The notes below the pieces were generated by a model. It saw only the letters and a list, made by a program, of their open reading frames with translations. It was not told the origin of the DNA and ran no database searches. A program made the translations under genes and the position numbers. DNA of 10,867 nt from an uncultured Desulfobacterales bacterium (lineage in GTDB: Bacteria > Desulfobacterota > Desulfobacteria > Desulfobacterales > UBA11574): assembly GCA_937925895.1 (NCBI GenBank), contig CALANC010000359.1:1-10867 (forward strand). The letters are read 5' to 3'. Of the stretch, positions 1 through 10,867 are shown piece by piece; within the stretch, counting starts at the first letter, position 1; each line of letters opens with the position of its first letter.

Positions 1-1
1 A

Positions 2-691
2 ATCGACAAAGACAACACGACTATTGTTGACGGAGCCGGTTCACGATCTGCTCTTGAGGGTCGCGTAAAACAAATTCGGGCTCAGATCGACGAGACAACA
101 TCTGATTACGACAGGGAAAAACTTCAGGAACGCCTTGCCAAGCTGATTGGTGGTGTTGCTGTCATCAATGTTGGTGCTGCTACCGAGACAGAGATGAAGG
201 AAAAGAAGGCCCGTGTCGAAGATGCATTGAACGCCACCAGGGCTGCAGTTGAGGAAGGTATTGTACCGGGGGGTGGGGTTGCGCTGGTGCGTTGCCTGGA
301 TGTTCTTGAAAAAATTAAAATCAAAGCCGATCAGAAGCTGGGTGTGAAAGTCGTAATAAGGGCCATTGAAGAGCCCCTGCGCCAGATCGCAAACAACGCC
401 GGCTTTGAAGGCTCCGTTGTGATCGACAAAGTAAAGAAGGGAAAGGATGCTTTTGGCTTTAATGCGGAGACCAACACTTATGAAGATCTTATGAAAGCAG
501 GTGTTATCGATCCGACCAAAGTGGTTCGTTATGCGCTGCAGAACGCCGGTAGCGTGGCCTCATTGATGCTGACGACCGAAGCCATGGTCGCTGAGAAGCC
601 TGAAGAAAAGCCGGATATGATGCCCGGCGGCGCTCCAGGAATGGGCGGCGGAATGGGCGGCGGAATGGGCGGAATGGGCGGAATGATGTAA
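2..691 (+). CDS. groEL: Chaperonin GroEL, C-terminal part (5' end outside window)
   Basis: This is the C-terminal 229 residues of the 60-kDa chaperonin, which with GroES folds proteins in the cytoplasm in an ATP-driven double-ring cage. The frame is open from base 2 and ends at a TAA. Visible family hallmarks are [17 protein letters not shown] near the apical/intermediate boundary, then [22 protein letters not shown] (read in two parts, around residues 66-87 of the fragment), [18 protein letters not shown], and the Gly-Met-rich tail that ends GGMGGMM. Compared with the usual length of about 548 residues, roughly the first 320 are missing because the window starts inside the gene, not because the gene is broken. 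The tail is encoded by a run of near-identical GGCGGAATG units. groES would be expected upstream of the window. Identification is firm. Confidence 0.97.
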
Positions 692-728
692 AAACGCCTT
701 CCATTTAAAGCTCACGAAATTTCAATAT

Positions 729-770
729 AAAAGGCCCTCATGTTGTATCGCATGAGGGCCTTTTTATATT
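729..770 (+). terminator. Rho-independent terminator after groEL
   Basis: A perfect 10-bp stem, GGCCCTCATG (733-742) with CATGAGGGCC (751-760), encloses an 8-base loop and is followed by TTTTT. The A-run before the stem and the T-run plus ATATT after it also pair, with a single-base bulge, so the structure could also stop transcription coming from the other direction. It lies 41 bases after the groEL stop. Confidence 0.92.
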
Positions 771-830
771 TAGGCTGCAAATTCGACATCTCATTGATGC
801 CGGCAAGATTAGTGATCCCTGGGTTATATT

Positions 831-1014
831 TAAGGTCATACCATTTTCTTCAAGGCGATATGAACCACGCCGTGCCGGGTGACCCAATATTTGGGATTGA
901 ACAAACAGCTGAGGAGTTGAAAAAGTGCGTACCATCAATCCCAAATATTTGGGTCACTGTGAAAGGCGGAGAAATTGATAAGCATATCGCCTTTCAGAAA
1001 AAGCCATGACCTTA
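831..1014. repeat. Long imperfect inverted repeat 1 (possible MITE-like element)
   Basis: The outer arms 831-862 and 983-1014 match at 27 of 32 positions in inverted orientation. They begin TAAGGTCAT and end ATGACCTTA. A second pair of arms, 879-900 and 935-957, reads GTGACCCAATATTTGGGATT against its reverse complement with a one-base indel. The right inner arm contains a perfect 14-base palindrome, CCCAAATATTTGGG (940-953). The whole could fold into a two-tier cruciform or RNA hairpin about 184 bases long with a loop of about 34 bases. Both outer ends carry TA, which would fit a TA target duplication of IS630/mariner-type elements, but TA ends also follow simply from the symmetry. No transposase fragment is recognisable. 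Confidence 0.7.
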
Positions 1015-1031
1015 CAAAACCGGGGTCTCCG

Positions 1032-1249
1032 GTGAGGCTGGATATTGTTTTTTTAAGGGCAAAATATTTCCGACTTCATTGAAAAAAAGAAAATATTTCA
1101 ATTTATTCTGGCTAGGCGCAATGGAGGTGTCTGTTGAAGACCTATCATTCATTCATTAGTATTAAAGCGATATCGAAATTCTGGCGCCGTGACTAGGGCG
1201 AAAATGGTATTTTAAATTTTGCCTTTTAAAAAATATTATCCAGCCTCAC
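1032..1249. repeat. Long imperfect inverted repeat 2 (possible MITE-like element)
   Basis: The terminal arms 1032-1065 and 1216-1249 match at 30 of 34 positions in inverted orientation. The tips are GTGAGGCTGGATA and its complement TATCCAGCCTCAC (the inner bases of the arms are AT-rich). The interior of about 150 bases has no credible ORF. It contains a small hairpin ATTGAAA/TTTCAAT (1078-1102) and two copies of a TTCTGGC-containing segment near 1107 and 1179. No target-site duplication is evident outside the arms. The arms differ from those of repeat 1, 17 bases upstream, so the two appear to be separate elements that inserted side by side. Confidence 0.65.
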
Positions 1250-1308
1250 TGATCTGACGATTGCGATCAAAGCTAGGGTGCGAAACTTAAATGGTTAAAT
1301 TGAAAAGC

Positions 1309-1338
1309 TTGACAAACCACGCCGTTGCAGGTTACTAA
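1309..1338 (+). promoter_or_regulatory. Weak candidate sigma70 promoter for the LysM gene
   Basis: A perfect -35 hexamer TTGACA (1309-1314) is followed after 18 bases by TACTAA (1333-1338), which matches only three of six -10 consensus positions. It lies just past inverted repeat 2 and about 55 bases before the preferred start codon. The good -35 and the position favour it; the poor -10 does not. Confidence 0.35.
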
Positions 1339-1393
1339 ATTAGCAGGATAAGTGGATAAATTTACAATAATTACTAATAAATCGGAGTATATG

Positions 1394-2437
1394 ATGATCT
1401 GTATGAAAAAAATCCAGGTGGTAGCGTGTGCGTTTATTTTAACCGTCATGATCTTTTTTCCATTTCATCTCTTTGCACAAGAAGAGACCGGGGTTGTAGA
1501 GCAAGAGTCGGGTTTTTACTACACGGTTCAAAAGGGGGACACACTCTGGGATCTTTCGCAGCGATTCTCTGATTCGTATTGGCTGTGGCCTGATTTATGG
1601 CAAGAAAACAAGCAGATTGCCAATCCACATTGGATTTATCCGGGCGAGCGAATTCGTCTATTTCATCGTAAAGGAGCCGAAAGCTTTGCCATCAAACCGG
1701 AAAAACCTAAAGAACTGGCTGTTGTTTCAGAGCAAGAACCGTTGAAAGAACCGCCATATTACTATTACTCCCCGATTAACCGGGTTGGATTCCTCAGAAA
1801 AGAACCTGTGGTTCCCAGAGGGACCATTTTTAAGGTAAAAGATAATAAGGAACTAATAGGTATTGGGGATTTGGTTTATATCAAACAAAAAAATGATAAG
1901 GACCTCATCCTTGGAAACAAATATACCGTCTATAGAACCTTTGAGCCCATCACTGACGAAAAAACAAAAAACCTTGTCGGAACGCAGCACTTTCTGACCG
2001 GTGTTGTCGAAATTACGAAAATTGAGCCAAGTTTTGCCCTGGCCAGAGTCGTCCAATCTTACCGTACCATTGGCGTCAATGACCTGTTAATGCCGTACAA
2101 AAAACGGTCCCCCAAAATTTTCCTGACCCAAAGCCGGAAAGGGTTAAAAGGAAAAATAATTATATTCGAATCCCATGGGAACATCAGCGGAGATAACGCC
2201 ATAGCGTTTATAGACAAGGGGAGGGTGAACGGTGTAAAGCGCGGGCAGTTGTACAGTATTTATTATCAGGAAAGTCAGCGAATTAATCCGGAAAACAAAG
2301 AGGATGTTGTTCTTACACCGGTTGATTACGGCACATTTCTAGTTCTTTATACCGAACAGGAGGCGTCAACCGTACTCATCACCCGATCTGAGCAAAGTAT
2401 TTCCCCGCAAGCTACTTTTCAGAGTCCACCTCACTAA
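1394..2437 (+). CDS. Exported LysM-domain protein
   Basis: The predicted 347-residue envelope protein probably binds peptidoglycan through its LysM domain. Residues 1-28 form a signal peptide: basic MKK, a hydrophobic stretch to FPFHLF, then a likely cut after Ala28 (LFA/QEE). Residues 42-91 form one LysM domain (YYTVQKGDTLWDLSQRF ... NPHWIYPGERIRLF) of the variant with a Trp-rich insertion (YWLWPDLW). The remaining 250 residues have no family I can name; they look beta-rich and contain repeated GIGDLVYI- and GRVNGVKRGQLY-like segments reminiscent of flagellar-assembly/SH3-like folds. Start choice: GGAG at 1384-1387 is 6 bases before ATG 1394. ATG 1391 (3 bases away) and the ATG of MKK at 1403 are alternatives, and a GTG at 1352 would put 14 more residues ahead of the signal peptide. 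Such proteins are common in Desulfobacterota. It is transcribed alone and converges on the pilin gene. The LysM call is firm; the role is inferred. Confidence 0.85.
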   Translation: MICMKKIQVVACAFILTVMIFFPFHLFAQEETGVVEQESGFYYTVQKGDTLWDLSQRFSDSYWLWPDLWQENKQIANPHWIYPGERIRLFHRKGAESFAIKPEKPKELAVVSEQEPLKEPPYYYYSPINRVGFLRKEPVVPRGTIFKVKDNKELIGIGDLVYIKQKNDKDLILGNKYTVYRTFEPITDEKTKNLVGTQHFLTGVVEITKIEPSFALARVVQSYRTIGVNDLLMPYKKRSPKIFLTQSRKGLKGKIIIFESHGNISGDNAIAFIDKGRVNGVKRGQLYSIYYQESQRINPENKEDVVLTPVDYGTFLVLYTEQEASTVLITRSEQSISPQATFQSPPH

Positions 2438-2484
2438 AGTGGTTTTAAATGGTTGTTGAGCCAAGGAGCATTTTTTAAAGGTCT

Positions 2485-2973
2485 TTAGTAGGAGGGAATG
2501 ACGTATATAGCACCGTTCTCGTAAATCATGTAATGATATTCTTTCTTGCCGCTGACAGAGGGCCAATTCGAACCGTTGACACTATAGATCCAGGCATCAA
2601 AATAGTAGCCATTACCGGGGGTTGTGTAGCTTTCCCCTGAAATCCTACCCTTTACTTCCGATGACAAATTGAAAACGGCTGTTCTGGGGTTGCCACCCAT
2701 TGTTGCATCCCCTACCGGACCTGAACTGCCGTCAACAAATACGGAAAAATCGATGTCTTCTTGACCCAAGAATGCATCATTAACGGCGGTCATCAGATTT
2801 CGTCCTTCAGCATAAGCTTGGGAATCGCCCGCGCGTTGTTTAAATATCCCATAATAATTGAATCCCATGGCGGTCAGGATGCTGATGATTGCAATCACAA
2901 CGATGAGTTCAACGAGTGTAAACCCGCCTTTACCTTTGAGTGGCTGAAGGTTCATTTTTTGCTTTTTACCCAT
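2485..2973 (-). CDS. Type IV pilin / type II secretion pseudopilin-like protein
   Basis: This 162-residue protein is a prepilin of the type IV pilus or type II secretion class, processed by prepilin peptidase and assembled at the inner membrane. The class III signal is clear: a basic leader of 17 residues ending KGKGG, cut before Phe18, then FTLVELIVVIAIISILTAMG with the conserved Glu at mature position 5 (Glu22). The hydrophobic N-terminal helix is followed by a small globular domain of about 120 residues without cysteines, so it lacks the C-terminal disulfide loop of many major pilins. That fits a minor pilin or a pseudopilin better than a classic PilA. TAAGGA (2983-2988) provides the ribosome site. 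It begins 21 bases after the stop of the upstream membrane-anchored gene, so the two should be co-transcribed. It ends 47 bases from the convergent LysM gene, and I see no convincing terminator between them. The exact pilus subtype cannot be decided from sequence alone. Confidence 0.88.
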   Translation of the reverse strand: MGKKQKMNLQPLKGKGGFTLVELIVVIAIISILTAMGFNYYGIFKQRAGDSQAYAEGRNLMTAVNDAFLGQEDIDFSVFVDGSSGPVGDATMGGNPRTAVFNLSSEVKGRISGESYTTPGNGYYFDAWIYSVNGSNWPSVSGKKEYHYMIYENGAIYVIPSY

Positions 2974-2994
2974 GGCGTGTTTCCTTACAGCAAT

Positions 2995-3798
2995 TTATTT
3001 TGAGATTTTGTACCACGTTCCGTTGACATTGATATAGTCAATGTGACCTGTCTCGGGATACTGAATATTTCCGAAACCTACGGAGCCGTCTCTGTTTTTC
3101 CACACCAGAAACTCACTGCTGAGTCCTGAGGCAATAATTTCGATTTCGGTTTGGCTTGTATAAGTGATTATCTTTTCACCGGCAGCTTCCTTTTCTTCGG
3201 GAGGGGGAACCATCTCTTCGGGCTTTTTAGCTACTAAAGGCTTGTCTCCTTCCGGTAATAGTCCTAAAGGGAGTTGCGGTTTCGGTATTTTTGCTGCTGC
3301 AATGACAGGGGTCTCTTTAACAGTTGCCGGTTTTGAAGGTTTAACTGCAGCTCCGGCTGTTGGTGCCGCAGCGGGTTTTTGATCAACCATGGCAAACATG
3401 GTATCAGTTCCAAGTCTGATTGTTAAGCTTTTATTAATAGAGGCCACACGCATTTGGTTCCCGAAAGTGGTGCGTTTACTCAGGATGAAGTTGTCACCCT
3501 GTTGCTTATAATCCCAGTCAATCTCATCGATAAACGATTTGTCGCCGATATATTTGGGATATAAGGCGTTGATATTGGACGGATAGGATTTGTTTTCCAA
3601 TTGATATTGTTTTATCGCTCTCGCCATACTGTCCAATCCGGCTCTGGGGCTTTTTTTAGCGGCTTCTGTCAATTGACGAAAGGTATTTTCTTGATGTACC
3701 TTAACATCTTTTTCATTTTTAAAATAATGGTATCCCATGGATCCAGCACCCAGAACGACCACAACCACAAGCACAATGAAAAGATTCTTGCTGATCAT
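2995..3798 (-). CDS. Membrane-anchored protein with pilin-like middle and Pro-rich linker
   Basis: I do not recognise a named family for this 267-residue protein. Residues 4-26 form a single N-terminal membrane helix (very Val-rich). Residues 35-107 include LDSMARAIKQYQLENKSYPS, then a DxDY-like IDEIDWDY. This resembles the post-helix region of pseudopilins, where a residue-length 'how far along the protein' segment (NALYPKYIGD) follows a Tyr/Pro turn. Residues 141-205 form an Ala/Pro/Lys/Glu-rich linker, and residues 209-267 a small C-terminal domain (VWKNRDGSVGFGNIQYPETG, GTWYKISK). It lacks the Gly-Phe-xxx-Glu prepilin cleavage motif, so it is probably a permanently anchored accessory protein rather than a subunit. 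AGGTGA lies just before the ATG. It is the first gene behind the internal promoter at 3833-3860 and is followed 21 bases later by the pilin gene, which suggests a role in pilus assembly. That role is inferred from context only. Confidence 0.75.
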   Translation of the reverse strand: MISKNLFIVLVVVVVLGAGSMGYHYFKNEKDVKVHQENTFRQLTEAAKKSPRAGLDSMARAIKQYQLENKSYPSNINALYPKYIGDKSFIDEIDWDYKQQGDNFILSKRTTFGNQMRVASINKSLTIRLGTDTMFAMVDQKPAAAPTAGAAVKPSKPATVKETPVIAAAKIPKPQLPLGLLPEGDKPLVAKKPEEMVPPPEEKEAAGEKIITYTSQTEIEIIASGLSSEFLVWKNRDGSVGFGNIQYPETGHIDYINVNGTWYKISK

Positions 3799-3832
3799 AT
3801 GTCACCTATTAAGTAGATATAATTTTATTTAA

Positions 3833-3860
3833 TTTATAGTATTTATACGCCACCTGTCAA
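3833..3860 (-). promoter_or_regulatory. Internal sigma70-type promoter for the pilin pair
   Basis: On the minus strand a perfect TTGACA (3860-3855) is followed after 16 bases by TATAAA (3838-3833). Transcription would start about 28 bases before the ATG at 3798. The spacer and surroundings are AT-rich. It lies in the 94-base gap after the DUF4124 gene, where I see no terminator hairpin, so the two downstream genes could be read both from it and from upstream. Confidence 0.65.
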
Positions 3861-3892
3861 CTGAAAAGTGAACTTTGTGCCGCTGTCTTCTG

Positions 3893-4651
3893 TTATTTCC
3901 TTTGCGCCTTATTGTAGGCTTCGGCCTTTTCCTGAAACACCTTTGCCCGTTTCATATAGTCGGCACTGCGTTGGTTGAAGTCGGCCACCCTTTTTTTGTG
4001 GGCTTCGTATTTTTCAGTGGTTGAAAAGACATCAGTTCCTGCGACGATCGCTTCTCGCTCTTTGATCAGCTCCAAGTACTCTCTATCGAGATCATTCTTG
4101 GTTTTGATCAGAGTGTTGGCGACAGGTTCTTTGGGGGTTTGGACTTTAACAATCTCTGTATTTTCAATAATCATAAGCTCTTCAGCCTGTTTTGCATGAA
4201 AAGTATCGACGTTTGATTTAAGTTGGTTTACACGTTTTTCATAATCTGCTCTGCGTTCATTGAAACGGGCTACCCTTTCTTTGAAGGCCTGATATTCTTC
4301 TTCTTTGAAATTTTTTGCAGTTGAAAAAAAAGCCATTTTAGATTCAAGGGCGTCTCGTTCTTTCGTAAGTTCCGCATATTCTTTATCGAGTTCGGTTTTG
4401 GTCTTTTGCAGTTCTTCAGCCAGTGATGTCCCCGGCGGAGAAGGGAGATCGTCTTTTTGAACGTCATCAGCTTCCAACGTCTGCGCTTCTGTATATGGCT
4501 GTACGTTTTCTCGCTGGTTTATGGGGACGTCGGCCAGGTTGTCCGTAAAGCGTTGGACGCCGTTTTCGTCCCTATACTGGTAAAAATCTGCTGAAACACA
4601 TATTGGCAGCAAAATAAGTATAATAAAAATTAGCACCGGCCGTAGTCTCAT
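3893..4651 (-). CDS. Exported DUF4124 protein with duplicated coiled-coil
   Basis: This is a predicted periplasmic protein of 252 residues. Residues 1-21 form a signal peptide (likely cut CVSA/DF). Residues 22-42 show the start of DUF4124: FYQYRDENGVQRFTDNLADVP, a short beta-rich motif found at the N-terminus of many exported proteins of unknown function, often near pilus or cell-wall genes. The rest is mostly charged alpha-helix and contains a tandem duplication: residues 77-155 and 177-250 both read KTKxxLDxEYxELxKER ... FST ... KRVAxFNxRxADYxKR. The start is placed at ATG 4651 because a GAGGA lies 5 bases before it. An upstream TTG at 4663 is excluded because it directly abuts a GAGGAGG motif. 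It follows the selenoprotein gene by 47 bases on the same strand. A structural or scaffold role in the pilus system is a guess from neighbours; the DUF4124 start and the duplication are seen directly. Confidence 0.82.
   Translation of the reverse strand: MRLRPVLIFIILILLPICVSADFYQYRDENGVQRFTDNLADVPINQRENVQPYTEAQTLEADDVQKDDLPSPPGTSLAEELQKTKTELDKEYAELTKERDALESKMAFFSTAKNFKEEEYQAFKERVARFNERRADYEKRVNQLKSNVDTFHAKQAEELMIIENTEIVKVQTPKEPVANTLIKTKNDLDREYLELIKEREAIVAGTDVFSTTEKYEAHKKRVADFNQRSADYMKRAKVFQEKAEAYNKAQRK
3902..4423 (-). repeat. Internal protein duplication in the DUF4124 gene
   Basis: Two copies of a helical unit of about 75 residues, encoded at 4423-4187 and 4123-3902, are separated by a 21-residue linker. 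Shared anchors are KTK, LD[KR]EY, EL.KERE/D, VF/FFST, K[RK]RVA.FN.R.ADY.KR. The second copy lacks about 4 residues after the FST motif. The copies have diverged clearly at the protein level, so the duplication is old. Confidence 0.8.
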
Positions 4652-4656
4652 ATAAA

Positions 4657-4661
4657 TCCTC
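4657..4661 (-). promoter_or_regulatory. Ribosome binding site setting the DUF4124 start
   Basis: GAGGA on the minus strand lies 5 bases before ATG 4651. A stronger GAGGAGG (4670-4664) sits 12 bases before the same ATG. Together they rule out the in-frame TTG at 4663. Confidence 0.7.
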
Positions 4662-4698
4662 AACCTCCTCAGAAGGCTATTGACGTTAAAAAGATTCC

Positions 4699-5541
4699 CT
4701 ATTTCTTTTTAAGCTCTTTATCAATTAATACCTTGAACCCTTCCAGCGTCCGATTTTTTAGCTTTTTCCCGTTGACAAAAATTGTCGGCGTACCCCTTAC
4801 GCCTGCTTTTCTTCCATCCTGGAAATCCTGTCTGACTTTTGCCAGAATTTTAAGATCTTTCTTTTCTGTTTCAAACTTTTCTCGATTTAATCCCAGCTCC
4901 GTGGCGATTTCTTTGATTTTTTGATCATCGAGTTTGCCGAAATTATCGAAAAGCAGGTCGTGAAATTCCCAGAATCTCCCCTGGGTATCGGCGGCCATGG
5001 CGGCTATTGCGGCCTTGGTGGCGAATTTGTGTATTTTGAGTGGAAAGTTCTTGAAAACAATTCTGACCGATTCCGGATATGTATCGAGCACCTGCTCGAG
5101 CAGCGGTAATAGCTTTTTGCAGTACACTCACTGGAATTCACTAAAGACAACAACAGCAACCGGCGCATCCGGAGATCCTTTGAAAGGAGATCCCGAGATA
5201 TTGATATTTTTGACAAATTCAAGCGTAAGAAACTGAACCGTACGGTCTTTTTTGCTGCTCAATAAAAGCATATCTTCCGTCGGACCCGCCTTGATTTGAT
5301 CGACATGTTTTTCGAGCTTAATTTTTTCTTTCAAGCTGCCGTCGCTTGAATAGATAAGCAGATTCCCCTGCTCAGCCAGAACGTAAATAAATTGTCCGTT
5401 ACGCGATATGGCCACGTCAATGGGTGGTGTTTCGAGTTTCAAAGTATTTCTTATATCCCATTCAACCGTGGCAAAACCAGGTGCCGAAAACAGGATAACG
5501 ATTAACAAGATAAACATCTGAATAGAACGCTTTGGTTTCAA
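4699..5541 (-). CDS. Selenocysteine-containing DsbA-like exported oxidoreductase (TGA at 5130-5128 read as Sec)
   Basis: Read through one in-frame TGA, this is a 280-residue thioredoxin-fold thiol oxidoreductase of the DsbA/DsbG type, which would form or isomerise disulfides in the periplasm. Residues 1-24 are a signal peptide (KPKR, hydrophobic core, FSAPGFA/TV). Residues about 38-112 look like two beta-propeller-type blades (PIDVAISRNGQFIYVLAEQG; VDQIKAGPTEDMLLLSSKKD). Residues 115-280 are the DsbA-like domain: GSPDAPVAVVVFSEFQ, then Sec138-Val-Tyr-Cys141-Lys-Lys, the helical insert (RFWEFHDLLFDNFG), and the cis-Pro loop GVRGTPTIFVNG (Pro252). In relatives the motif is FSDFQCPYC, so the TGA falls exactly on the first redox Cys. 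The TTG start is supported by GGGAGG 7 bases upstream, and the ATG at residue 9 would remove the basic signal region. Neither half would work alone: the first lacks the fold and the second lacks a start site and a signal peptide. The gene follows pilY1 by 16 bases. Use of Sec is inferred from motif, frame and the SECIS-like hairpin. Confidence 0.85.
5084..5099 (-). promoter_or_regulatory. Candidate bacterial SECIS hairpin
   Basis: Downstream of the TGA, the mRNA can form a perfect 6-bp stem TCGAGC/GCTCGA closed by the tetraloop AGGT. Thirty-four bases separate the TGA from the loop, inside the 16-37 range reported for bacterial SECIS elements, and the loop has G at its second position, as required by the usual model. 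The G-rich loop resembles the GGTC loop of the E. coli fdhF element. Two further pairs can form below a small internal loop. A competing palindrome CTGCTCGAGCAG overlaps the 5' side but gives a less typical loop. Confidence 0.7.
5128..5130 (-). other. In-frame TGA, predicted selenocysteine codon 138
   Basis: The codons around it read Ser-Glu-Phe-Gln-TGA-Val-Tyr-Cys-Lys-Lys. Both sides stay in one frame, with coding-like sequence for 137 codons before and 142 after, so no frameshift is needed. The TGA occupies the position of the first Cys in the CxxC motif of DsbA-like proteins. Confidence 0.85.
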
Positions 5542-5548
5542 GCCTTTA

Positions 5549-5554
5549 CCTCCC
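5549..5554 (-). promoter_or_regulatory. Ribosome binding site fixing the TTG start of the selenoprotein
   Basis: GGGAGG on the minus strand lies 7 bases before TTG 5541, between the pilY1 stop and this start. It makes the TTG preferable to the ATG eight codons further in. Confidence 0.75.
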
Positions 5555-5557
5555 TTT

Positions 5558-8500
5558 TTATTTTAATTCTCCCCAGCTAGTCCTGCCGGTTTTATATTTA
5601 TTTATGGGTAAATTCGGCTGGGGAATCTCGACGATTGTACCGGTGCTTGTCTGGACAAAGGCTTTGCTGCCTTCCTGCTCACCCACATGAAGGTTTGGTG
5701 TTATGGCCAGACCCCGCCCGAGATCCAAAACGTCTTCGGCATTTTCTTCGGTGGTATCGCCAAAAGCTGACTCATACCATGCGGTTCCCGTCCGGAAATA
5801 CACGCCATAGAGAAAACCCAGTCCTTCAGGCAGGCAGACATCATTATAAGGCTGATAGGTGGTGAATGTCAAAAGCCCTCCTAAAAGGGTGGCTTGACCC
5901 AGGTTCCGTTCTCTGGTTAGAGAAAAGTCCTTGTACCAGCCGTCTTTACCTGTTTCGTAAAGCGCTCTCTCTGCTGCGGTATGGGTCGGGTCATAACAAC
6001 CCGTGCCGGTAATATAGGTATCAAGTTGATTAAACGTGGTGATGCCGGCCGTGATGAGTGCTTCGCAATCCGTGTCCGAGAGCAGGCAGGAGAGGGTCGC
6101 ATCAATGCCGTTAGTGGCCCGTTTTATCAATATTTTATCTACCTGAAGTAAACCCTGGGCTCCGGGCGTTGTATTCCAGCTGCCGGTCTTTTCCACCGTT
6201 TCCCAGGTGAATTCGTCACAATCCCGCGGTTCCTTTATGCCGTAATACGTCTGTTGGGCGTTGCTGCCCGAGTCTGTCTTGTCGTCTGAATCAAAAAACC
6301 GGCCGGTACCGAAATATATCCAGTAATTTTCGAAGTCGGTTCCGATGGAGGCGGCTCCGGTTACGGGTTGGCCGGTGTTTAACAGGTAGAGGGGATTTGA
6401 AAGCCCGGAGGTGCTGAGCAGGGTCGACCACTCGCTCGGTTTGGTAACCACCTGGGTTCCGGCGGTGACTTTCCGTGTTACCAGTCGATACATGCCGCCG
6501 CCCCAGGAGCCCCAGGTGCCCGACACCGTGCCGAAATAGACCGCGTCCGTCTTGTAGAATTCTTCCAATTGGAAGTCCACGGATATCATATCCGAAACAA
6601 AGCTGTTGGCGGTAAGCGTGAACGTGCCGCCTTCGAAACTTGCCACGGTGGGCAAGGCGTCGGTAATTCGGAAGGCTCTTTTGACGCCTCCGGTTTGCCA
6701 GTCGACCAGCCAGTCAAGAGGGAAGACGGCGACCTTGGCGTCTTGGGTGCTCTTGCCGTCCATGTCTGTCGGACCGCTACCCAAAATCAGGTACCAGTTA
6801 ATCTCGTCGGTATCGATCTCTTCCGGGTCGTCGTTGTCCTGTACCCCGTCCGTCAACTCATCGGCCATAACAACGATTGTCGGCATGGGGGTCGTGTAGG
6901 AGAGATCCACATGGCTGGCATCGGTTTTCCGGGTAAATTCCGCCAGCAACACCGGCGGGGCTTCAGGATTTGTAATGTCAAGAATGACGTAAGAGGAGGT
7001 AAATTCGCGTTTGTCGGCGGCAAAATCAGCCGTGGAATCGCCGTTCAGGTCCAGCTCGCCCGGACGCACCTTGGCGCCCCCGAACCGCATGCCCTGAACC
7101 AGGATGGTGCCCCAACCGTCGGTGTGAATGCCGTCCGTGGGATCAAAAATTCTTACATCAAAGACCCTGGGATGCTGATCGACATAGTACTTGTGCTCGT
7201 AACTGGAATCCGTAAGGCAATTCAAGTGGGGAATGAGGTTATAGGGGACATAGGCCCACAGTTCTGCACCCAGCTCAGGGGAGCTTGTTGGATTGGTGCC
7301 TTCATCTGAACAGCTGTCATTGCGGCAGAATCGCTTATTGAACTCATCATAGAACCCGCCGTTAACGGCATGGATCATGCCGTCGTTGCCGCCGAAATAG
7401 ATCATGTGCCGCCGTTTTTTATATGCGGCTACAAATCGGGAGTAGGAGCTGTCACGGTAGAGGAAATGAAAGCCTTCAGCCGGACTGGCTACGGAAATCG
7501 GCGTCGAGTGAATCACATCGCCAAGACGCCAGTAGACGTCGGAGTCTGTGCCGTCCTGATCAAAGTCGTACGGCATCTTCCGTCCCCGTTGGGTTGACTG
7601 GTCCAACCCCCTTACCCACTTGACGATATTATCTGCTTCGGCAAGGGTCTGGACGCCAAAATCCAGGAGCACCGAACCCCGGGAAGCATCGACGGTCAGT
7701 GCAGACCAGTCGGTACCGCCGGTTGTGGCGGAATCGACAAAATTCAGCAATTCGGCACTGTCCACGATGCCGTCATTGTCCAGATCATCCCAGGTGAAAA
7801 TAAACCGCTCTTTGACGTTGGAGATATAATCCGTGGTGGTACCAAGGGACGTTCGATTGGCAAGGATGTCCGTGCTGGCATCCGTGGCAGTGGTGGGACC
7901 GACATTGGCCAGCCACTCCGCTGCGGACCACAAAAATTTCACTTCTTCCAGGTCTTTTGACGTTCCGGTACAGGTGCCGCTCGATACGGTGCCGTAACAG
8001 GCTTTGCTGGCGCCGACTGACTCGTTAAAATAAAATATTACTTTCAAATCGCTGCTGTCCAGGGTCCGGTCGCCGTCCGTGTCTTCGTACAAGTAGCCGT
8101 ATTCGTCAACAAACAGGGAATGGACCTCGCCGATATATTTGACCGTGCCGCCGCCGGACAGCTCGATATTCGGCCAGAAAATCGCCTGGTATGCGGCCCC
8201 TTCGCCGCCGCGGGAAGCAGATATTACCGAAGCAGCCGAACCGGCCGCCGCCCCGGCCCTGATGGCCTCAAAGGCTTCCCTGAGGGTGGCTTCTAACGTC
8301 GAAGGATCCGAAGCGTCGTAAAGCGTGGTTCCCCCGTTGGTGGCAGCCTCGGCCAAAAGAACATCCGGGCTGCATTCATCTGTTCCGGTTACCCGCAGGG
8401 TCCCGGCAACAACAATGTGGGTGGTGATGTTCTGTTTGTCATACCCGTTCAGCTGTGTGGCGTGGAGACTCGTGCTGTTATTGGCATAATAGGTCAGGTC

Positions 8501-10750
8501 GTCCAGGTAGGGGCTGCCGGAAAGATCGCCGCAGTCCGCACCGTCATCCGTGTCGGCGTCATTCTGATTCGCTGTGCCGACGAAGGTGCCGACATCGGTA
8601 TGCTGGTCCGCCGTGGAGGCGCCTTCGGTGATAACCAGGATGTTGTTGTCCTGACAATAGTATTCGATGGGATCGTCGGCAGAGCTGATACTAAAGTCAC
8701 TGCTGTCCAGTCTGAGAGAGCTGTTCTGGGTATAATACCCGATGGCATTATACAAGGCCTCTGCCAGCGGGGTCCACGAGGTGGCTTTGATATCGTTGAT
8801 GGCGTTTACCAGAGCGGTTGTATGCGCGCTGGACTTGTCGATACCGGAGATGATTTTTCCCCCGTCTTTGTTGGACGCGCTGGAGCATTGATAGAGGATG
8901 TGTGTATCTGAATCGTCGCACTCGCTCTTGGCGCCGTCATCGTTAAAGACCATGGCGCCCATGCGGATGTCATCGGTAAATTCCTGGATCAGTCCGGTGG
9001 GGGCTGAAGACTGATCGATTTGCCCCTTCAACGTCGCCAGGGGTTGGCCCATCTGGGCGACCACACCGGAATCGACCAGCACGGCCGGGAAGTTCCAGAA
9101 CTGACCGGTCTCGTCCGCCAGGTCACTGGGATCGATGACTTCGGGTATCTCTACACCACCGCAGTATTCATTCATAGCCGTTTCAATACATTCATCCACA
9201 CCGGCATACCCGGCAGTATCCCAATCCGGGTCTGTACCACCCACGTATTCCCACTGTTTACACTCGCCGGCTTTTGGTCCGCCGGTAAAGTAACCCCCGG
9301 TGCAAGTAAGTACTGCCGCGGTTCCCGGGTTCCAGCAACGTCCCACATACCCTTCGGGATAATCGTCATCATCGTCGGGGAGATACAATCCATAGCAAAC
9401 ATACGCAGGATCATCGGTGGTGACGTTCCACGGTGCTGGTCCTGAATATGTCCCTGTACCGTCATCGTAGGAATACACGTTTTCACAGGCGTTTCTGGTG
9501 GAGGTCACCACGCCCTCGCCGGGCGGCCAGTCTCCCTGTTTGGCCTTGTACCAGCAGTTGTAGATGGCACGGTTGAATGCGGCATTGGAGTTGGCTTCAT
9601 CCGAGCTGCCGCCTCCTTCCGCATAGCCCATGCAGTCATCGATATACGCCTTGAGCTGGCCCTGGTTGGGACTTGTTTTTTTCAGTTCGTCCACGGCATC
9701 CTGGCAGGCACTGTGATCAAACCCGGTCGATGTCACCGTAAAGAGTTCAATGTGGGTCAGGTTGTAGGGCACCCAGTCCGTTATTCCCGTGTCGTCGTCA
9801 ACACCGGTTCCGCTGGCGGTGCCGCCGGCAGCGGTGTAATATAACGTGCCTTCATCAAGCGTATTGTTTTTGCTGGGATCGCTTACCACACTGCCTGCAG
9901 CGTAAGAAGCCCCGTTGGTCCAGATGGTACCCGTGTAAGCCGCCCAGGTGACACCGGTATCGTCGCTGGCACCGGTGCCGTTGGACGTGCCGGCGGTGGT
10001 TGCGATATACAGTTCACCCACATCATTAACAATATTACCCACAGAATAAGCGGTATTGTTCTCCCAGGCGTCAAAGGTCGGTGATATTGGCGAACGAACG
10101 GCAAGGGTGAGGTAGTTGTCTTCAATGACAACATTGCCGCCGGTGTCTTGGTATCTATCAAACTGGATTTTCTTGAGATAGCGCCGATTGGAGCAACCTC
10201 TCGACTCCATGACCAGAAGGTTGTTGGTGGCGTCATGCTTGCCGCCGGTGAGAATCTCTTTTTGCACGTCGATTTTTGAAGCAGCCGCCCAGTTCAAAAA
10301 ATTTCCGTAGGCGACAAATCCGGTCACGCTGGGTGTCGAGTCGATCTTAATCCAGACAGCCGCGGCTAAAGGGAAGCGATAGTACAGGTTGCCGGTGGCA
10401 TTGTACCACTGATCGTCCGTACTCGAATTCCAGACTTCAAATTTTTCCGAGGTCAGATTGTACACATAGAGTATGGTCGGCTGAAAATAGCCGGCATAGG
10501 TGGTCGTCGGGTCATAGGTGTCGTCAAAACACTCGCTGTTGGTTTCAACATAGGCCAGGTCCAGCATGCTGCCGGAGTTGTCGATCATGAGCAACAAGTT
10601 GGGATCCACCCCTGCGGCAAGAAACGGTGGATCGGCAACACCACTGGTGCACGTATTGGTGCCGAAAGCATTCACGGGCATGAGGCCGGTGAACGCCATC
10701 GAAACCAATATAATGAGCATGGGTGAGAAATATTTTTTAGAGAATGACAT
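5558..10750 (-). CDS. pilY1: PilY1/PilC-type pilus-tip protein with VWA-like and propeller domains
   Basis: This 1730-residue exported protein belongs to the PilY1/PilC family, which sits at the type IV pilus tip and controls pilus extension, adhesion and surface sensing. Residues 1-28 form a signal peptide (MPVNA/FG). A von Willebrand A-like domain starts with LLLMIDNSGSM (MIDAS Asp57-x-Ser59-x-Ser61) and resumes after a long insertion with TSWTPLAEALYNAIGYY (655-673) and NNILVITEGAST (702-713). Inserted are two carbohydrate-binding-like repeats (229-329) and a Cys-rich stretch (349-530, ten Cys). The C-terminal half is the PilY1 propeller: YWRLGDVIHSTPI (1073-1085), YFGGNDGMIHAVNG, ELWAYVPYNLIPH, and a calcium loop Asp1234-Leu-Asn1236-Gly-Asp1238-xxx-Asp1242 of the type that controls retraction in Pseudomonas PilY1. 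It has two EF-hand-like loops (890-901, 989-1000) and 28 Cys. PilY1 proteins are usually about 1000-1300 residues, so this one is long. AAGGAGG lies 5 bases before the ATG. The selenoprotein gene follows after 16 bases. Codon use is more GC-rich than in the flanking small genes. Confidence 0.9.
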   Translation of the reverse strand: MSFSKKYFSPMLIILVSMAFTGLMPVNAFGTNTCTSGVADPPFLAAGVDPNLLLMIDNSGSMLDLAYVETNSECFDDTYDPTTTYAGYFQPTILYVYNLTSEKFEVWNSSTDDQWYNATGNLYYRFPLAAAVWIKIDSTPSVTGFVAYGNFLNWAAASKIDVQKEILTGGKHDATNNLLVMESRGCSNRRYLKKIQFDRYQDTGGNVVIEDNYLTLAVRSPISPTFDAWENNTAYSVGNIVNDVGELYIATTAGTSNGTGASDDTGVTWAAYTGTIWTNGASYAAGSVVSDPSKNNTLDEGTLYYTAAGGTASGTGVDDDTGITDWVPYNLTHIELFTVTSTGFDHSACQDAVDELKKTSPNQGQLKAYIDDCMGYAEGGGSSDEANSNAAFNRAIYNCWYKAKQGDWPPGEGVVTSTRNACENVYSYDDGTGTYSGPAPWNVTTDDPAYVCYGLYLPDDDDDYPEGYVGRCWNPGTAAVLTCTGGYFTGGPKAGECKQWEYVGGTDPDWDTAGYAGVDECIETAMNEYCGGVEIPEVIDPSDLADETGQFWNFPAVLVDSGVVAQMGQPLATLKGQIDQSSAPTGLIQEFTDDIRMGAMVFNDDGAKSECDDSDTHILYQCSSASNKDGGKIISGIDKSSAHTTALVNAINDIKATSWTPLAEALYNAIGYYTQNSSLRLDSSDFSISSADDPIEYYCQDNNILVITEGASTADQHTDVGTFVGTANQNDADTDDGADCGDLSGSPYLDDLTYYANNSTSLHATQLNGYDKQNITTHIVVAGTLRVTGTDECSPDVLLAEAATNGGTTLYDASDPSTLEATLREAFEAIRAGAAAGSAASVISASRGGEGAAYQAIFWPNIELSGGGTVKYIGEVHSLFVDEYGYLYEDTDGDRTLDSSDLKVIFYFNESVGASKACYGTVSSGTCTGTSKDLEEVKFLWSAAEWLANVGPTTATDASTDILANRTSLGTTTDYISNVKERFIFTWDDLDNDGIVDSAELLNFVDSATTGGTDWSALTVDASRGSVLLDFGVQTLAEADNIVKWVRGLDQSTQRGRKMPYDFDQDGTDSDVYWRLGDVIHSTPISVASPAEGFHFLYRDSSYSRFVAAYKKRRHMIYFGGNDGMIHAVNGGFYDEFNKRFCRNDSCSDEGTNPTSSPELGAELWAYVPYNLIPHLNCLTDSSYEHKYYVDQHPRVFDVRIFDPTDGIHTDGWGTILVQGMRFGGAKVRPGELDLNGDSTADFAADKREFTSSYVILDITNPEAPPVLLAEFTRKTDASHVDLSYTTPMPTIVVMADELTDGVQDNDDPEEIDTDEINWYLILGSGPTDMDGKSTQDAKVAVFPLDWLVDWQTGGVKRAFRITDALPTVASFEGGTFTLTANSFVSDMISVDFQLEEFYKTDAVYFGTVSGTWGSWGGGMYRLVTRKVTAGTQVVTKPSEWSTLLSTSGLSNPLYLLNTGQPVTGAASIGTDFENYWIYFGTGRFFDSDDKTDSGSNAQQTYYGIKEPRDCDEFTWETVEKTGSWNTTPGAQGLLQVDKILIKRATNGIDATLSCLLSDTDCEALITAGITTFNQLDTYITGTGCYDPTHTAAERALYETGKDGWYKDFSLTRERNLGQATLLGGLLTFTTYQPYNDVCLPEGLGFLYGVYFRTGTAWYESAFGDTTEENAEDVLDLGRGLAITPNLHVGEQEGSKAFVQTSTGTIVEIPQPNLPINKYKTGRTSWGELK
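9764..10066 (-). repeat. Tandem carbohydrate-binding-like modules inside pilY1
   Basis: Two copies, residues 229-272 and 277-329, share the layout W-x5-Y-xx-G-x-[VI]-V ... G-x-L/E-Y-[IY]-x-A ... G-T/S-GTG-x-DDTG-[VI]. The first reads WENNTAYSVGNIVNDVGELY, the second WTNGASYAAGSVVS followed by a short insert and EGTLYYTAAG. The pattern resembles the CBM5/12 (chitin-binding) fold and related modules in phage tail proteins. Family membership is judged from motif only. Confidence 0.6.
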
Positions 10751-10755
10751 TATGT

Positions 10756-10762
10756 CCTCCTT
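10756..10762 (-). promoter_or_regulatory. Ribosome binding site of pilY1
   Basis: A full-consensus AAGGAGG lies 5 bases before ATG 10750, stronger than the sites of the downstream genes. Confidence 0.8.
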
Positions 10763-10766
10763 GTTT

Positions 10767-10865
10767 TTAATAATTACAGGCGCCTTCCTGTCCGATCACA
10801 TGCCTCCAGGAAGTCTGAATGACCGACTCGCTGTTGGCCTCTCCCTGATGCTGAGAAAACAAATC
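10767..10865 (-). CDS. 3' end of an upstream gene (unidentified, probable pilus-cluster gene)
   Basis: One minus-strand frame is open from the window edge to a TAA at 10769-10767, giving 32 residues that end VIQTSWRHVIGQEGACNY. The stop is 16 bases before the pilY1 ATG, the same spacing as between pilY1 and the selenoprotein gene, which supports an operon. Genes just before pilY1 in this position are often minor pilins such as PilX, and a Cys near the C-terminus is compatible, but the fragment is too short to identify. An alternative frame of 23 codons from the window edge ends at TGA and is less convincing. Confidence 0.5.
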   Translation of the reverse strand, partial: DLFSQHQGEANSESVIQTSWRHVIGQEGACNY

Positions 10866-10867
10866 AT

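Follow-up and report, generated by a model that had tools for sequence, protein, structure and literature searches.

A probable DsbA-like selenoprotein with two beta-propeller blades encoded across an in-frame TGA in an uncultured Desulfobacterales bacterium

Organization of the locus

The window analyzed here is the whole 10,867-nucleotide (nt) stretch of contig CALANC010000359.1 (assembly GCA_937925895.1, positions 1 to 10,867, forward strand) from an uncultured Desulfobacterales bacterium. On its minus strand the frame 5541–4699 is open except for one TGA at 5130–5128, in the context ...TTC CAG TGA GTG TAC TGC..., and we conclude, with a probability of about 0.93, that the locus encodes a DsbA-fold protein in which this codon is decoded as selenocysteine (Sec, U). 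Under the standard code there are two abutting open reading frames (ORFs), 5541–5128 (137 amino acids, aa) and 5127–4699 (142 aa), which the original prediction had seen in the same frame, and standard-code gene calling does split the gene in two, as it had expected. Its proposal of a 280-residue product across the TGA is borne out by a single frame from the TTG at 5541 to the TAG at 4701–4699; the product includes U138, with the active site U-V-Y-C in the context ...SEFQ-U-VYC-KK.... The features of the locus are as follows.

4699..5541, minus strand: whole DsbA-like selenoprotein gene, with TTG start at 5541, in-frame TGA and TAG stop at 4701–4699; 280 residues (from sequence, relatives and model)
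5128..5130, minus strand: TGA codon interpreted as Sec138, first residue of U-V-Y-C (52 TGA and 43 Cys in 95 relatives)
5119..5121, minus strand: Cys141 (TGC), resolving Cys of UxxC (from sequence; Cys in 94 of 95)
5084..5099, minus strand: hairpin within the coding sequence assigned as a selenocysteine insertion sequence (SECIS), with a 6-bp stem UCGAGC/GCUCGA and AGGU loop at 5093–5090 (from comparison)
5473..5541, minus strand: hydrophobic N-terminal segment, residues 1–23, probable export signal (from translation; predicted helix 5–17)
5206..5472, minus strand: two WD40/YVTN-type beta-propeller blades, residues 24–112 (from structure and sequence matches)
4702..5217, minus strand: DsbA/BdbD/ScsC-type thioredoxin-fold domain, residues 109–280, with T251-P252 at the expected cis-Pro loop (from domain matches and predicted fold)
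5549..5554, minus strand: ribosome-binding motif GGGAGG, 7 nt before the TTG (read from sequence)

Both halves of the gene appear to be held at the protein level, since third codon positions are the most divergent on either side of the TGA. Between the window gene and 24 relatives (without L037, which does not span the Sec site), third-position divergence is 0.646 versus 0.405 and 0.254 at the other two positions before the TGA, and 0.578 versus 0.329 and 0.268 after it.

Selenocysteine and cysteine forms among relatives

Sixty genomes, the window's own and those of 59 relatives, were searched in six frames, and 40 of them have a match. Matches with one in-frame TGA are present in 20 of the 60, the window's included, and those of the relatives share 38–57% identity with the window protein. 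Among the 25 site-spanning loci of this first alignment, 20 have TGA and five have Cys. A scan of contigs with the window protein alone as query returned no match, and the set was extended by a profile scan of named genomes, which confirmed 479 stretches, the best 80 of them being taken. Ten loci that are copies of contigs already in the set (L091–L095, L102, L106, L114, L140 and L148) were dropped, and L037, which does not cover the site, was left out.

The resulting 95 distinct relatives have TGA at the active-site column in 52 cases and Cys in 43, a ratio that is no census, and no other residue occurs there; this is the pattern to be expected if, as originally proposed, homologues carry Cys where the window gene has TGA. 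The 95 are sequences rather than genomes, and by accession prefix four pairs come from the same assembly (L110/L141, L118/L169, L120/L163 and L149/L161). The second active-site Cys is present in 94 of 95, the exception being L169 with Thr. A frame, a TGA and a following Cys common to so many relatives are beyond chance. By record title the hosts in the profile scan are mainly Desulfobacterales, Desulfobulbaceae, Desulfuromonadales and other deltaproteobacterial groups, in keeping with the suggestion that Sec homologues are found notably among delta-proteobacteria, together with a few Nitrospirota metagenome-assembled genomes (MAGs). Four TGA loci (L113, L116, L122 and L150) are in non-MAG records. 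Desulfopila sp. IMCC35008 and Desulforhopalus singaporensis are cultured bacteria whose gene is of the TGA form.

An even draw of the phylum, made as a separate set of 297 genomes, gives a match at E 1e-40 in 69. The match starts at or before model position 16 in 42 of these (three of them truncated C-terminally), and 13 of the 42, the window's included, have TGA. One in-frame TGA is also present in ten shorter matches that start no earlier than model position 101 (e.g. G392, G348 and G168), and Sec may thus occur in DsbA-like proteins that have the redox domain without the blade part.

Three relatives have unusual forms. L169 (from position 1404), an additional copy from the same assembly as L118, reads UHYT, with Sec kept and the second Cys changed to Thr. 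L037 (G015, contig C465) is an orthologue in two pieces that lacks about residues 134–154, the active-site and SECIS region, owing to either a deletion or an assembly fault. L034 (G031) is a TGA-form orthologue with an extra in-frame TAG in its signal-peptide region.

A quick tree was built from the 95 protein sequences after deletion of the columns for the first three active-site residues. It implies 20 Sec/Cys changes, of which starred branches force at least ten; shuffled labels give a mean of 31.5.

A hairpin downstream of the TGA

In bacteria a SECIS element is a hairpin shortly downstream of the TGA whose small apical loop has a G close to its start, and the window gene has such a structure. 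The RNA of 5099–5084 can form a six-pair stem closed by an AGGU loop, the stem starting 31 nt past the first base of the TGA. All six inner pairs are formed in 48 of the 52 TGA genes versus two of the 43 Cys genes, and five or more pairs in 52 of 52 versus 12 of 43. In 1000 redraws of the synonymous codons of the TGA genes, the full six-pair stem appears on average in 2.6 of the 52 and never in more than 9. The Cys genes lie slightly above their own null (mean 3.70 pairs versus 3.53, standard deviation 0.13; all six pairs in two genes versus 0.19), an excess that we read as recent losses.

The stem varies in ways that preserve pairing, with compensatory changes from G-C to C-G, G-C to U-A and C-G to U-A (in 11 sequences, and also in the 52-sequence table), and the loop of the 52 TGA genes is AGGU in 46, AGUU in five and GGGU in one. 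Among 20 TGA genes, codons +11 to +13 are always the same when two genes share the amino acid, compared with a gene-wide mean of 0.49. The Cys form L024 is placed in the tree among the close TGA forms L026, L028 and L029, and its loop-closing pair is broken (C-G to C-A), which fits a hairpin kept only for Sec. Judged by these sequence comparisons, the hairpin is a bacterial SECIS signal; it had gone unmentioned in the original prediction and provides independent evidence for the Sec reading. An Rfam search of the window up to E 1 gives no match to a SECIS family; its three matches are all far below their gathering scores and we take them as chance.

The hairpin and the TGA/Cys column together bear on two simpler accounts of the broken frame. 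One is that the TGA is a nonsense mutation in a decaying pseudogene, as might be supposed of a MAG in which no Sec machinery is found (see below); against this, 52 of 95 relatives have TGA at the same codon with the frame continuing beyond it, codon positions diverge in the manner of a coding sequence both before and after it, and synonymous sites after the TGA are held by the hairpin, so that the chance of a pseudogene is negligible. The other is a sequencing or assembly error for a true TGC or TGT. The MAG is fragmented and Cys forms do exist, but the TGA recurs in 20 of the 60 genomes (the window's being one) and in the four non-MAG records, and the window gene has the hairpin that the Cys forms mostly lack; we regard an error as highly improbable.

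Selenocysteine decoding in the genome and its relatives

The genes for Sec decoding were sought in 34 genomes chosen from the 60, the window's own (G000) included, and matches over cut-off are present for selA in 30, selB in 24, selC in 20 and selD in 25. All selD matches that pass the cut-off carry one in-frame TGA themselves, and the four selC loci over cut-off that were given to ARAGORN are all tRNA-Sec with anticodon TCA. In L033 (G056, contig C202) selA (16792–18168), selB (25364–27256, on the other strand) and the Sec-DsbA gene (27806–28648) lie within 12 kb.

Other genes of G000 probably use TGA in this way too. FlpD-type proteins may contain Sec, and five of the seven FlpD/MvhD matches in G000 have a single TGA: L190 (contig C414), L191 (C236, two genes), L192 (C284) and L193 (C182). 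When the seven are aligned, three TGAs share one column, where the other four genes have Cys, and two share a second column, where four of the five others have Cys and the most distant, on C173, has Asn. With five such genes at Cys columns, G000 very likely decodes TGA as Sec.

Several observations weigh against our reading of the locus. None of selA, selB, selC and selD, which the original prediction had named as a check, is found in G000, a MAG of 2.58 Mb in 481 contigs that is 69% complete; the chance of missing all four is near 1% (0.31 to the fourth power) if they are unlinked and 69% of the genome is present. The presence of selB does not track the TGA form, being found in 20 of 25 TGA-form versus 22 of 25 Cys-form genomes, and the six partial matches to formate dehydrogenase alpha in G000 are all below cut-off and have no TGA. 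The hairpin is not the minimum-energy fold of a 66-nt piece including the TGA, which adopts another structure; pieces of 28 nt and 57 nt do form it, but 16 and 104 of 200 shuffles, respectively, fold as well or better (z -1.50 and 0.17). The case for the hairpin therefore rests on comparison, its folding energy being no better than that of many shuffles. Its loop, 34 nt after the UGA, lies towards the long end of the range for bacterial SECIS elements, and the gene's neighbors are not kept among most loci examined.

The searches of G000 for decoding genes returned several candidates that we reject. The five SelB-like matches are all below cut-off (one, L005, is EF-Tu by eye), and the two matches to the selD model (86.1 and 42.7 bits; cut-off 125) are taken as paralogues. 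Of 199 candidates for tRNA-Sec, 150 were scored; the six tRNA-Sec-like matches are all assigned by ARAGORN to tRNA-Leu, -Ser or -Glu, and a BLAST search of G000 with the tRNA-Sec of a relative gives no match. The searches for selA and selD required E 1e-10 or better and could have missed short fragments.

The missing sel genes count for less in a genome that is 69% complete and in 481 contigs, and they are offset by the five other TGA-bearing genes. Relatives, too, are patchy in their sel genes: G014 has only selD over cut-off and G023 only selA. In G030 (L177) and G055 (L179) the tRNA-Sec gene is truncated at base 1 of a contig, and in G015 (L178) the match covers only its bases 34–94 and lies 94 bases from a contig end; assemblies may often break at tRNA-Sec. 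These patterns speak to the alternative that the lineage has recently lost Sec decoding, so that a former selenoprotein gene now gives only a 137-residue fragment of signal and blades. Failure to find any of the four genes is what such a loss would leave, yet the MAG has five further TGA genes with open frames and the same genes are missed in relatives, and we give it a slight chance.

The remaining alternative is that TGA is read through a reassigned code, as Trp or another residue, or by plain read-through. We find no positive point in its favor, and an open frame alone cannot separate read-through from Sec, but the 43 relatives lacking TGA have Cys and never Trp, the four selC loci are tRNA-Sec with anticodon TCA, and the FlpD TGAs in the same MAG fall at Cys columns; its chance is very slight. 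The originally proposed reading of the TGA as Sec is thus supported by the TGA/Cys column, the SECIS hairpin, the sel genes of relatives and the FlpD TGAs.

Protein architecture and related proteins

The N-terminus is hydrophobic, with a helix at residues 5–17 in the model, and residues 1–23 are a probable export signal. Residues 109–280 are predicted to adopt the DsbA/BdbD/ScsC fold and match PF13462 (Thioredoxin_4; 93.1 bits, cut-off 23.2) and PF01323 (DSBA; 68.8 bits, cut-off 25.6); P252, where the cis-Pro loop is expected, is invariant in a 31-row family alignment. Between these parts, residues 24–112 form seven strands in two blades. The propeller-like N-terminal part suggested earlier is therefore present as blades, but there are two only, with no full propeller and no ring closed within a single chain. 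Aligned with one another, the two blades show only a suggestive likeness (hhalign probability 75.9 over 19 columns).

DsbA-like selenoproteins of deltaproteobacteria are a known kind, and the DsbA- and DsbG-like examples resemble the window protein in DsbA fold, UxxC motif and host group; the propeller fragment may set the window protein apart from them. The window protein exceeds no NCBIfam cut-off. Its best match is NF041057 (Rcas_1661 family thioredoxin-like (seleno)lipoprotein; 80 bits versus a curated cut-off of 190, E 1.9e-22), which by name likewise has Sec and Cys forms and matches residues 111–275, the redox domain only. All 31 members of the family alignment match this model at E 0.001 or better, the best E of the other 30 rows being 1.2e-29. 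BdbD of Bacillus subtilis, 3gyk of Silicibacter pomeroyi and ScsC of Proteus mirabilis have Cys where the window protein has Sec, and their matches start at model residue 109, leaving the blades unmatched; ScsC reportedly trimerizes via another N-terminal segment.

The blades are alike in sequence and fold to YVTN/WD40 propellers, including the surface layer protein 1l0q and the three-bladed fragment 6r5z, and to the 80-residue designs Cake2 (6tjb) and v13Bagel2 (8pr9). These four are complete rings or self-assembling fragments, and their titles name no redox domain.

Neighboring genes

Upstream, 16 nt from the selenoprotein gene, a large, exported-looking protein of 1730 aa is encoded on the minus strand (5558–10750). 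Its C-terminal 647 residues match PF05567 (PilY1 propeller) marginally (28.4 bits, cut-off 28.1); the whole protein gives no domain match and no convincing solved relative, and it contains DNSGSM, which we take to be a MIDAS-like (metal-ion-dependent adhesion site) motif. The downstream neighbor has a sub-cut-off match to DUF4124 (20.9 bits, cut-off 22), and a prepilin gene lies further on. Between these two lies an ORF of 267 aa (2995–3798, minus strand) that has a hydrophobic segment at its N-terminus and matches nothing in Pfam or NCBIfam at E 0.001.

By tblastn, a homologue of the upstream protein lies beside the gene in only one of 80 loci (L091), some of the loci having short flanks. The recurrent neighbors elsewhere, named by eye, are PhoH-, YbeY/PdxJ- and acyl-CoA-synthetase-like ORFs. 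Since the PilY1/prepilin neighborhood is not kept in most loci examined, we do not claim a pilus role.

Proposed function and significance

The UGA would be decoded by SelB and Sec-tRNA, directed by the AGGU-loop hairpin 34 nt on. The product, probably exported via its N-terminal signal, would be a thiol-disulfide oxidoreductase of the DsbA/BdbD/ScsC fold with the Sec of U-V-Y-C as nucleophile; Sec is a faster, low-pKa nucleophile compared with Cys. From these features we infer as the best reading of function an exported, Sec-dependent disulfide reductase or isomerase.

More tentatively, with the odds somewhat against it, the two blades of each chain may close a ring by oligomerization and so array three or four Sec DsbA domains round one rim. 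The fragments could self-assemble, giving for instance a six-bladed ring from three chains or an eight-bladed one from four, and the ring would present several Sec domains for reduction or isomerization of disulfides in envelope proteins. We know of no such design in the Dsb family.

A gene seemingly broken by a stop is thus very probably an intact one for an exported, selenium-containing disulfide enzyme common to many sediment bacteria. As the standard code splits it, a probable envelope redox subfamily is easily missed in assemblies of Desulfobacterota and some Nitrospirota. With 95 sequences that include Sec/Cys changes, and a hairpin mostly gone from the Cys forms, why Sec is kept or lost can be tested directly in a single enzyme. 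The half-propeller points to a new means of oligomerizing a disulfide enzyme and, if this is true, the protein would be a selenium-based reductase or isomerase of disulfides with a split propeller as its scaffold.
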